Positions 28,593 through 32,415 of a stretch of 64,000 nt of DNA are shown here, piece by piece (position 1 is the stretch's first letter; each line of letters opens with the position of its first letter). The stretch is from positions 3,594,606-3,658,605 of the forward strand of contig NZ_KI911782.1 of assembly GCF_000515395.1 (NCBI RefSeq), read 5' to 3'. The notes beneath the pieces are model-generated. The model did no database searches. It was not told the origin of the DNA and saw only the letters and a program-made list of their open reading frames with translations. The stretch is from Jiangella gansuensis DSM 44835. Lineage in GTDB: Bacteria; Actinomycetota; Actinomycetes; Jiangellales; Jiangellaceae. Both the position numbers and the translations under genes were made by a program.

Positions 28593-29228
28593 ATGGCCGT
28601 GCAGGAAAAACACGAGCTCGACGATGACGATGTCGTGCTGCCGGAGCGGCGCGCGTCGCTTAAGGTGCTGGGCTGGCTGTTGATCGTCGGCGGTGCGGTC
28701 GGACTGCTCGGCTCGGCCATGCTCGTCATCGAGCGCGTCCGGCTGCTCGAGGACCCCGGTTACACGCCGTCATGCAGCTTCAACCCGGTCGTCACCTGTG
28801 GCCAGGTCATGGAGAGCTGGCAGGGGTCGCTGTTCGGGTTCCCCAACCCGGTCATCGGGGTGGCGGCGTTCCCCGTCGTCATCACCATCGGCGTCGTGGC
28901 GCTGACCGGCGGCAAGCTGCCGCGCTGGTTCTGGCTCGGGCTCAACGCCGGCGCGCTGGCCGGCGCGGTGTTCATCACCTGGCTGTTCACCCAGAGCGTC
29001 TACTACATCGGCGCGCTGTGCCCGTATTGCATGGCGGTGTGGGTCGCGACCATCCCGATCTTCGTCTACACGACGGGCTACAACCTTTCCGAGGGGCACC
29101 TCAAGGCGCCGCCGGCGTTGCGCCGGGCCGTCGTCGACAGCCGTGGCCTCATCGTCACCGTGTGGTACCTGATCATCGCCATCCTGATCACCATCGAGTT
29201 CTGGGACCGCTGGTACCTCGTCTTCTGA
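28593..29228 (+). CDS. Vitamin K epoxide reductase (VKOR) family protein
   Basis: A 211-residue membrane oxidoreductase that re-oxidises a thioredoxin-like disulfide catalyst by passing electrons to quinone. The loop Cys pair is C61/C69 in CSFNPVVTCGQVM, and the active-site CPYC (143-146) is in the helix FTQSVYYIGALCPYCMAVW. Helices include LKVLGWLLIVGGAVGLLGSAML, VIGVAAFPVVITIGVVAL and LIVTVWYLIIAILITIEF. The thioredoxin-like partner is not encoded nearby. It is followed at 18 bp by a family D hairpin. Confidence 0.93.
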   Translation: MAVQEKHELDDDDVVLPERRASLKVLGWLLIVGGAVGLLGSAMLVIERVRLLEDPGYTPSCSFNPVVTCGQVMESWQGSLFGFPNPVIGVAAFPVVITIGVVALTGGKLPRWFWLGLNAGALAGAVFITWLFTQSVYYIGALCPYCMAVWVATIPIFVYTTGYNLSEGHLKAPPALRRAVVDSRGLIVTVWYLIIAILITIEFWDRWYLVF

Positions 29229-29310: not shown

Positions 29311-29358
29311 AAGTCCTGCCGGCGGGCCCGACGCCCACTGCGGTGACCCGTCGTGCGC

Positions 29359-29364
29359 TATCCT
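29359..29364 (+). promoter_or_regulatory. -10 element of the leuS leader
   Basis: TATCCT lies about 7 nt before the GTG of the leucine-rich leader peptide, so transcription would start at or next to that GTG and the leader mRNA would be leaderless. No good -35 match is seen 16-18 nt upstream. Confidence 0.45.
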
Positions 29365-29371
29365 GAGAGAT

Positions 29372-29407
29372 GTGCGAGGCCTGCTGCTCCTTACCGGGCC
29401 GCGCTGA
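29372..29407 (+). CDS. Leucine-rich leader peptide of leuS (attenuator)
   Basis: GTG 29372 opens an 11-codon frame reading VRGLLLLTGPR then TGA. It contains four consecutive leucine codons (CTG CTG CTC CTT). It precedes a strong hairpin with a T-rich tail and then leuS. This is the arrangement of classic ribosome-stalling attenuation: when charged tRNA-Leu is scarce, stalling at the Leu codons would prevent terminator formation and raise leuS expression. The ATG two bases earlier opens another frame (MCEACCSLPG) that makes less regulatory sense. Confidence 0.6.
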   Translation: MRGLLLLTGPR

Positions 29408-29448
29408 CTGGTAGCGGACGCCCTCAGCGGCGTCACGTCGGCGCGGCT

Positions 29449-29480
29449 GACCCCTCCTGCGTGAGGGGTCTCTTCTTGTT
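29449..29480 (+). terminator. Attenuator terminator before leuS
   Basis: GACCCCTC and GAGGGGTC form an 8-bp perfect stem with a CTGCGT loop, followed by TCTTCTTGTT. It lies 42 nt after the leader-peptide stop and 50 nt before leuS, so it is positioned to control read-through into leuS. Confidence 0.7.
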
Positions 29481-29529
29481 AGGGGCCTGACGTTCCGGCC
29501 CGAAACAGACGACGTAGGGACGAATTCCG

Positions 29530-32415
29530 ATGAGCGAGACGCAGACCGGCACGACCACGACGCCTGCCGAGGACGCACCGTACCGCTACAACGCCGAGCT
29601 GGCCGGCACGATCGAGCAGCGCTGGCAGGACCGCTGGGAGCACGAGGGCACGTTCAACGCGCCGAATCCCTCCGGGCCGCTGGCCGAGGGCGGCGACGAC
29701 CTGCCGTCCAACAAGTTCTTCGTGATGGACATGTTCCCCTATCCGTCCGGGCGGGGGCTGCACGTCGGTCATCCGCTGGGCTACATCGCCACCGACGTCA
29801 TCGGCCGGTTCCGGCGCATGTGCGGCGACAACGTCCTGCACGCGCTGGCCTACGACGCCTTCGGGCTGCCGGCCGAGCAGTACGCCGTCCAGACCGGCCA
29901 GCACCCGCGCAAGACCACCGAGGAGAACATCACGACGATGCGCCGGCAGCTGCGCCGGCTGGGGCTGGGACACGACACCCGCCGCTCGTTCGCGACGATC
30001 GACCCGGAGTACGTCCGCTGGACCCAGTGGATCTTCCTGCAGATCTTCAACTCCTGGTTCGACACCGAGGCCGACGGCGGACGGGGCCGGGCGCGGCCCA
30101 TCGCCGAGCTGGTCGAGCAGTTCGAACGGGGTGAGCGGCCGGTTCCGGGCGGGCGCGCCTGGAGCGAGCTGAGCAAGGCCGAGCGCAACGCCGTCGTCGA
30201 CGACCACCGGCTGGCGTACGTGTCGGAGTCGCCGGTGAACTGGTGCCCGGGGCTGGGCACCGTGCTGGCCAACGAGGAGGTCACCGCCGACGGCCGCAGC
30301 GAGCGCGGCAACTTCCCGGTCTTCAAGCGCAACCTGCGCCAGTGGATGATGCGCATCACCGCCTACGCGGACCGGCTGATCGACGACCTGGACCGCATCG
30401 ACTGGCCGGAGAAGGTCCGCACGATGCAGCGCAACTGGATCGGGCGGTCCACCGGCGCGACGGTCCGGTTCGCCTCCGACGCCGGTGACGTGGAGGTTTT
30501 CACCACCCGGCCGGACACCCTGTTCGGCGCGACGTTCATGGTGGTGGCACCCGAGCACCCGCTGGTCGAGGCGCTGACGCCGTCGTCGTGGCCGGAGGGG
30601 ACGAAGCCGGCCTGGACCGGCGGGCACACGACCCCAGCCGACGCCGTCGCCGCCTACCGCGCGCAGGCCGCCGGAAAAACAGAGACGGAGCGTCAGGCTG
30701 CGACGTCGGAGGGCCGCGACAAGACCGGCGTCTTCACCGGTTCGTTCGCCGTCAACCCGGTCAACGGCCAGCGCATCCCCGTCTTCGTCGCCGACTACGT
30801 CCTGATGGGTTACGGCACCGGCGCCATCATGGCGGTGCCTGGTCAGGACGAGCGCGACTGGGAGTTCGCCGAGCGCTTCGACCTGCCGATCATCCGGACG
30901 GTGCAGCCGCCGGACGACTTCGACGGCGAGGCGTACACCGGCGAGGGCCCGGCCATCAACTCCGCGAACGACGAGATCTCCCTGAACGGGCGGCCGGTCG
31001 ACGACGCCAAGGCCGCGATCATCGCGTGGCTGGAGTCGAAGGGCACCGGCGAGGGCACCGTCACCTACCGGCTGCGCGACTGGCTGTTCAGCCGGCAGCG
31101 CTACTGGGGCGAGCCGTTCCCCATCGTGTACGACGAGGACGGCGCGCCGATCGCCCTGCCCGACCACATGCTGCCGGTCGACCTGCCCGAGGTGCCCGAC
31201 TACTCGCCGAAGACCTATGACGCCGACGCCGCGGACACCACGCCCGAGCCTCCGCTGGCCCGGGTGCCGGAGTGGGTCGAGGTCGAACTGGACCTGGGCG
31301 ACGGCCCCAAGCGCTACCGCCGCGACACCAACACCATGCCCAACTGGGCCGGCTCCTGCTGGTACGAGCTGCGCTACGTCGACCCCACCGCCTCCGACCG
31401 GCTGGTCGACCCCGAGAACGAGCGCTACTGGATGGGCCCGCGCACCGACCGCCGGGCCGGCGGCGTCGACCTGTACATCGGCGGCATCGAACACGGGGTG
31501 CTGCACCTGCTGTACTCCCGCTTCTGGCACAAGGTGCTGTTCGACCTGGGCCACGTCTCCAGCGAGGAGCCCTTCCACAAGCTGTTCAACCAGGGCTACA
31601 TCCAGGCGTACGCCTACACCGACGACCGCGGCCAGTACGTCCCCGCCGACGAGGTCATCGAAGAGGAACAGGACGGGAAGTCCGTGTGGTTCTTCGAGGG
31701 GAAGCCGGTCAACCGCGAGTACGGCAAGATGGGCAAGAGCCTGAAGAACATCGTCACGCCCGACGACATGTACAGCGCCTACGGCGCCGACACGTTCCGG
31801 GTGTACGAGATGTCGATGGGCCCGCTGGACATGTCCCGGCCCTGGGAGACCCGAGCGGTCGTCGGCTCACTGCGGTTCCTGCAGCGCGTCTGGCGCAACA
31901 TCGTTTCGGAAGACACAGGTGAAACCGTCGTTTCGGTGCGGTCCGCCGACGACGAAACCCGCCGCATCCTGCACCGCACCATCGCCGCGGTCCGTGCCGA
32001 CATGGAGGCGATGCGATTCAACACCGCCATCGCCCGCATGATCGAGCTGAACAACCACCTGACCAAGCTGGACTCCGTCCCGCGAGAGGCGGCCGAGGCG
32101 CTGGTGCTGATGCTGGCCCCCGTCGCTCCGCACATCGCCGAGGAACTGTGGTCGCGGCTGGGCCACCCGCAGTCGCTGGCGCGGGAGCCGTTCCCCGTCG
32201 CCGACCCGGCACTGCTGGTCGACGACACCGTCACCTGTGTCGTCCAGGTGGCCGGGAAGGTCCGCGACCGGCTGCAGGTGCCGCCGTCCGTCGACGACGA
32301 CACCCTGCGTGAGCTGGCGCTGGCGTCCGAGGCGGTGCAGCGCACGCTGGACGGCCGCGGGGTGCGCACCGTGATCGTCCGGGCGCCCAAACTGGTCAAC
32401 GTCGTCCCGGCCTGA
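29530..32415 (+). CDS. leuS: Leucyl-tRNA synthetase
   Basis: A 961-residue class I synthetase that charges tRNA-Leu. The HIGH-equivalent is HVGH at residues 78-81 within [18 protein letters not shown]. The KMSKS-equivalent is KMGKS at about 733-737. The CP1 editing domain lies between them, with [21 protein letters not shown] near 325 and [15 protein letters not shown] near 430. The C-terminal anticodon-binding and LeuS tail domains are complete. A leucine-rich leader and terminator precede it. It is followed at 15 bp by the DegV-family gene. Confidence 0.98.

Follow-up and report, generated by a model that had tools for sequence, protein, structure and literature searches.

The leuS gene of Jiangella gansuensis DSM 44835 is very probably (at about 85%, by our own estimate) controlled by a ribosome-mediated transcription attenuator, in which a leaderless leader peptide with a run of leucine codons is followed by a stem, which we call P1, and by an intrinsic terminator. 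Its parts are listed in Table 1 by their positions in the window, i.e. in the whole stretch of 64,000 nucleotides which was analysed. Leaderless attenuation of leuS itself has already been published, for Streptomyces; what is new here is the class-wide distribution of this layout, the covariation of P1 and of the terminator, the CUU codon placed at 5 nt, and the same layout in front of cimA. In the open-access literature searched, which leaves most subscription journals outside, we found no description of the wide distribution, of the rule joining CUU, 5 nt, P1 and terminator, or of the cimA and leuC versions.

Table 1. Features of the leuS leader region, by position in the window.
Feature	Position	Strand	Basis or remark
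Extended -10 promoter element TGCGC-TATCCT	29354..29364	+	sequence read and alignment of 80 leaders
Leader ORF VRGLLLLTGPR-stop	29372..29407	+	sequence read; kept in 22/22 Jiangellaceae
Sensor codons CTG CTG CTC CTT	29381..29392	+	final CTT ends exactly 5 nt 5' of P1 GCC
P1 stem, 5' arm GGCCGCGCTGAC	29397..29408	+	overlaps G-P-R-stop codons
Inner hairpin GACGCC-CTCAGC-GGCGTC, inside P1 loop	29417..29434	+	lineage-specific
P1 stem, 3' arm GTCGGCGCGGCT	29437..29448	+	directly abuts terminator
Intrinsic terminator, 8-bp hairpin GACCCCTC/GAGGGGTC and TCTTCTTGTT	29449..29480	+	
AGGG, probable leuS Shine-Dalgarno	29516..29519	+	read from sequence
leuS, leucyl-tRNA synthetase, 961 aa	29530..32415	+	TIGR00396

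A preliminary description of this stretch had read TATCCT, then 7 nt later a GTG opening VRGLLLLTGPR-stop with four leucine codons, then an 8-bp hairpin and leuS, and all of these are present on direct reading. TATCCT (29359-29364) is separated by a spacer of 7 nt from GTG (29372-29374), and the leader runs GTG CGA GGC CTG CTG CTC CTT ACC GGG CCG CGC TGA, with its stop at 29405-29407. The terminator hairpin, GACCCCTC-CTGCGT-GAGGGGTC (29449-29470), is GC-rich and has 8 bp, the U-richness of its tail TCTTCTTGTT (29471-29480) is only moderate, and leuS starts with the ATG at 29530. Two elements were absent from that account: P1, a stem of 12 bp in which 29397-29408 pair with 29437-29448 between leader and terminator, and the rarity of the last leucine codon, CTT. 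Another possible ATG, at 29370 and out of frame with the GTG (MCEACCSLPGRADW), was dropped, as it is not conserved. A T-box riboswitch gave no match, and no Rfam family reached its gathering score anywhere in the window.

The leader is the sole short ORF with at least three consecutive leucine codons behind TANNNT-N6/7-RTG on either strand of the 64 kb window, and 30 first-order Markov shuffles of the window contain no ORF of that kind. As it is moreover conserved, such a leader is more than a product of chance. LeuS shares 89% identity with its J. asiatica counterpart, and the genome groups with Jiangella, eleven other genomes being of the same genus. The leucine run upstream of leuS, which the preliminary description proposed to look for in relatives, was found, together with TANNNT-N6/7-RTG and the terminator, in 22/22 Jiangellaceae genomes (this genome counted) and in 60/80 named LeuS relatives; the genomes, named and unnamed, were sampled unevenly, and their sequences are related and hence not independent, so that these counts and those below are descriptive. 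Among the carriers are Streptomyces, Micromonospora and its relatives, Pseudonocardiales, Geodermatophilaceae and Brachybacterium; no leader was found at the examined loci of Aeromicrobium, Cellulomonas, Actinomycetaceae, Rhodococcus and Mycolicibacterium. A covariance model built on 40 leaders matches 152 of the 297 genomes of the class (about half) at E <= 0.001, and wherever coordinates of leuS are listed, leuS lies immediately downstream of the strong matches. The model still matches locus L102, whose tail is T-poor. Across the phylum, 14 matches at E <= 1e-5 were obtained in 197 genomes, one of them outside the class and also before a leuS-like frame. The leaders serve both the long and the short types of LeuS, and in one Jiangellaceae genome, G020, both types of leuS are present, each behind a leader of its own (L153 on G020:C30; L103 on G020:C5).

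Upstream of the start codon, TANNNT stands at 6 or 7 nt even where the search demanded no promoter. When 80 leuS leaders are aligned on the -10 element, every one of them has G at -14, and TGCG often fills -17 to -14; taken singly, G-16, C-15 and T-17 are frequent too. The leaders of that set had been selected for the T, A and T of TANNNT, which are hence constant by choice. Judging by this alignment, there is a conserved extended -10 promoter before the leuS leaders. As its -10 lies only 6-7 nt before RTG, a ribosome-binding site cannot be transcribed, and transcription is expected to start at or beside the leader GTG (29372). A leaderless leader mRNA, as the preliminary description had suggested, is therefore strongly supported by the sequences, and the homologue in S. 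lividans is indeed leaderless: in RNA-seq of strain TK24, LeuL2 (MRAVRLLLSEPR) is transcribed in leaderless form and is followed by a hairpin and a U stretch (PMC8079986). The same description considered this design unusual, which must be corrected, because leaderless sensor peptides are the usual form in actinobacteria: S. lividans has leuL1, leuL2, trpL1, trpL2, ilvL, metL and thrL (PMC8079986), C. glutamicum has ilvL (PMC11857589), and the mycobacterial polycysteine ORFs are cited as further examples. The comparative data point neither to a leucine run without conservation nor to a start site far upstream, the two findings which had been named as contrary to the proposal.

In 78/81 leaders the leucine run closes with CTT, a codon which makes up 0.2% of the leucine codons in the leuS genes of these loci, where CTG makes up 94%. 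The in-frame codon from whose end exactly 5 nt remain up to the GCC of P1 codes for leucine in 79 of the 81 leaders (CUU in 78, CUC in 1). From the end of P1 to the core of the terminator there are 2 nt in 66/79, while the P1 loop may be anything from 8 to 57 nt long. Other families supplied more leaders, for which P1 was placed without reference to the codons; the spacing there is directly 5 nt in 38/60, and most of the others are cases in which an Ile, Val or Leu codon further on was counted or in which there is an extra base pair. The layout read from these sequences, with its strikingly fixed geometry, is common to many actinobacterial families beyond Streptomyces. In theory, rare control codons raise the sensitivity of an attenuator, the Salmonella leu leader being an example (PMC1183508), and CUU was also named as control codon in ilvBNC of C. 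glutamicum (PMC11857589).

Promoter position, ORF, leucine run, CUU spacing, P1, terminator and conservation are all read in the sequences, and from them we infer the translation of the leader, the stalling and the direction of the response. Transcription would begin at the GTG, and a ribosome would load on the bare 5' end and translate the leucine run. When charged tRNA-Leu is plentiful, the ribosome would pass and leave, P1 would close and the adjoining terminator would stop RNA polymerase. When charged tRNA-Leu is scarce, the ribosome would stall with the rare CUU in its A site, so that its leading edge reaches the base of P1; as P1 lies next to the terminator, termination would then fail and leuS would be made. 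From what is generally known of ribosome footprints, a spacing of 5 nt would bring the mRNA entry of a ribosome which holds CUU in its A site up to the base of P1. Attenuation of leuS through a leucine-rich peptide, the central claim of the preliminary description, thus appears well supported by anatomy and conservation. P1 and the terminator are compatible, i.e. they can coexist, and the step which turns termination off has therefore to be deduced: either P1 would be opened, so that its 3' arm pairs with the apex of the terminator, or the ribosome would sterically hinder the terminator hairpin.

The first of these routes amounts to a classical attenuator with three hairpins, as proposed for leuS of Streptomyces and for ilvBNC of C. 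glutamicum, where 1:2 would be P1, 2:3 an antiterminator in which the 3' arm of P1 pairs with the upper terminator, and 3:4 the terminator. It is a variant of the attenuator described above, a rival only at the switching step, and we would give it an even chance. When structures were folded at equilibrium with the ribosome as a mask, the probability of the terminator was about 1 for almost every locus and state, and 0.84-0.86 in all states for the trp leader of E. coli taken as control; this test has no power, because the trp terminator also persists with a ribosome at the control codons. It was replaced by a calculation of what the loss of the terminator costs in energy, with a trp sequence checked against E. 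coli records, and for trp this cost is 3.5-4.7 kcal/mol with the ribosome stalled versus 12.6-13.9 kcal/mol with the ribosome at the stop codon. In the leuS leaders the same calculation, which detects the trp antiterminator, gave no stall-specific antiterminator, the cost at CUU being generally not below that at the stop codon; an exception was seen with the widest footprint tried, for which the cost was at least 3 kcal/mol lower in 28/79 loci when the ribosome was stalled at CUU. Blocking P1, on the other hand, brings the cost down from about 12.6 kcal/mol to some 6-7 kcal/mol, and the alternatives which then recur join GC[GA]-C-GG, in the 3' arm of P1, to CC-UG[CU] in the apex of the terminator. 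This means that P1 favours termination and that a weak classical antiterminator is possible. A 3-bp version of the pairing between P1 3' arm and terminator apex is conserved, and an antiterminator was annotated in Streptomyces by Seliverstov et al. 2005 (PMC1262725). Against this stand the facts that only these 3 pairs are conserved, with almost no compensatory support, and that the apex pairing varies between lineages. A 2:3 register GCGCGG:CUGYGY was rejected, as it is broken in most leaders of Micromonospora and of Geodermatophilaceae. For S. coelicolor, work cited in PMC1262725 on the related leaders of ilvB and leuA found that codon mutations did not have the effects expected of classical attenuation.

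The second route is that the ribosome stalled at CUU is held on a closed P1, about 2 nt from the terminator, and blocks its hairpin without any antiterminator. We know of no precedent for such a block of termination, and we regard it as doubtful. It would account for the two fixed distances, 5 nt between CUU and P1 and mostly 2 nt between P1 and the terminator core, beside a loop whose length is free, and for the same 5 nt in the cimA and leuC leaders. However, the argument is purely geometric, and the leading edge of the ribosome is uncertain: values from A+9 to A+15 were tried, and the wider ones would open P1.

Most leaders also have TG[CT]G 12 nt past P1, in the loop or stem of the terminator (29457-29462 in the window), where it might mark a pause site or serve as the contact of an antiterminator. 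A hairpin-stabilised pause was considered and is retained as no more than an idea: in 67/77 leaders the distance between P1 and the Y of TGY is 12 nt, but remoter lineages have TGY shifted or lack it. The G at -10 of the pause consensus is absent from the leuS leaders, which was also counted against such a pause.

The conservation of P1 was judged on an alignment of 40 sequences, where 96.9% of the cells of P1 and of the terminator are paired and changes on both sides occur in 30 cells, versus 6.6 in shuffles; this support is lost when the arms are slid by 1-3 columns. A terminator that is constitutive, behind a leader which is decaying or without function, with leuS transcribed mainly from elsewhere, would fit the presence of a gene upstream on the same strand (28593-29228). 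It is nevertheless very improbable, as promoter, codons, P1 (by compensation) and terminator are conserved across many families. In the alignment the 5' arm of P1 covers the codons P-[RC]-stop and the 3' arm adjoins the terminator. Several lineages place the stop right after the leucine run (for example LLLT-stop in L146, L148 and L179), and P1 is still in place, which shows that the RNA and not the end of the peptide is under selection. An arrest peptide, in which the C-terminal P-R or P-C would stall the ribosome through the nascent chain before the stop, is hence hardly credible: P-[RC]-stop is frequent, but P-[RC] is lost in the lineages with an earlier stop, and the change between P-R (CGC) and P-C (TGC) is matched exactly by a compensatory C-G/U-A pair in P1.

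Away from leuS, weak matches to the model precede cimA (with Ile-rich leaders), leuA, leuC and ilvB, genes which were mostly identified by reading the protein and not by a profile search, except cimA here (TIGR00977). The second match in this genome (E 0.018) lies before this cimA, which codes for citramalate synthase: a leader MNLCLIIS-stop with ATT ATT, a P1-like stem and a terminator (L114:1501-1607; G000:C1:1890814-1890920). Ile-rich leaders of the same layout precede cimA in other actinobacteria (L145, L152, L158, L163, L216, L218-L222), and their -10 resembles CANACT, not TANNNT. Before leuC there are Leu-rich leaders with a P1-like stem and no obvious terminator (L159, L160), and before leuA a similar stem (L217); these possibly exert translational control. 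The weak matches before ilvB (L150, L223) have a similar stem and a terminator. The spacing of 5 nt was also read in the cimA and leuC leaders. A single actinobacterial design for branched-chain genes (leuS of both types, cimA, perhaps leuA, leuC and ilvB), in which a rare codon lies 5 nt from a stem abutting the terminator and a docked, stalled ribosome blocks termination without antiterminator, is an unlikely generalisation. The design rule itself is quantitative, a rare CUU, 5 nt, a stem, about 2 nt and the terminator, and it makes the switching of leaderless attenuators testable by small insertions and codon swaps.

Like the trp attenuator of E. coli, the leuS element has a leader peptide with control codons, a pre-terminator hairpin and a terminator; the trp leader has a Shine-Dalgarno sequence, its Trp codons lie within segment 1, and it forms a clear 2:3 antiterminator which was not seen here. 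It resembles the ilvBNC attenuator of C. glutamicum (PMC11857589), where the transcript begins one nucleotide from the leader start codon, CUU is a control codon and hairpins precede the terminator; that system belongs to another operon and to other amino acids (Val, Ile, Leu), and has been dissected by experiments which included its antiterminator. The actinobacterial LEU element of leuA (PMC1262725) also has a leader peptide with a leucine run, which pairs there with the Shine-Dalgarno of leuA in a pseudoknot with no obvious terminator; in leuS, on the contrary, a terminator stands between leader and gene. Finally, classical attenuators were predicted before leuS of S. coelicolor and S. avermitilis by Seliverstov et al. 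2005 (PMC1262725), and by its layout the element of the window is of the same kind as this published Streptomyces leuS attenuator and LeuL2 (PMC1262725, PMC8079986). Gene, position, leaderless leader with a leucine run, P1 and terminator are the same, and the Streptomyces leuS leaders align with that of the window under the same covariance model; they have three leucine codons and ATG, where the window has four, GTG and another P1 loop. The attenuator described in Streptomyces is therefore widespread in the class, and the covariance model serves to find more of its kind.
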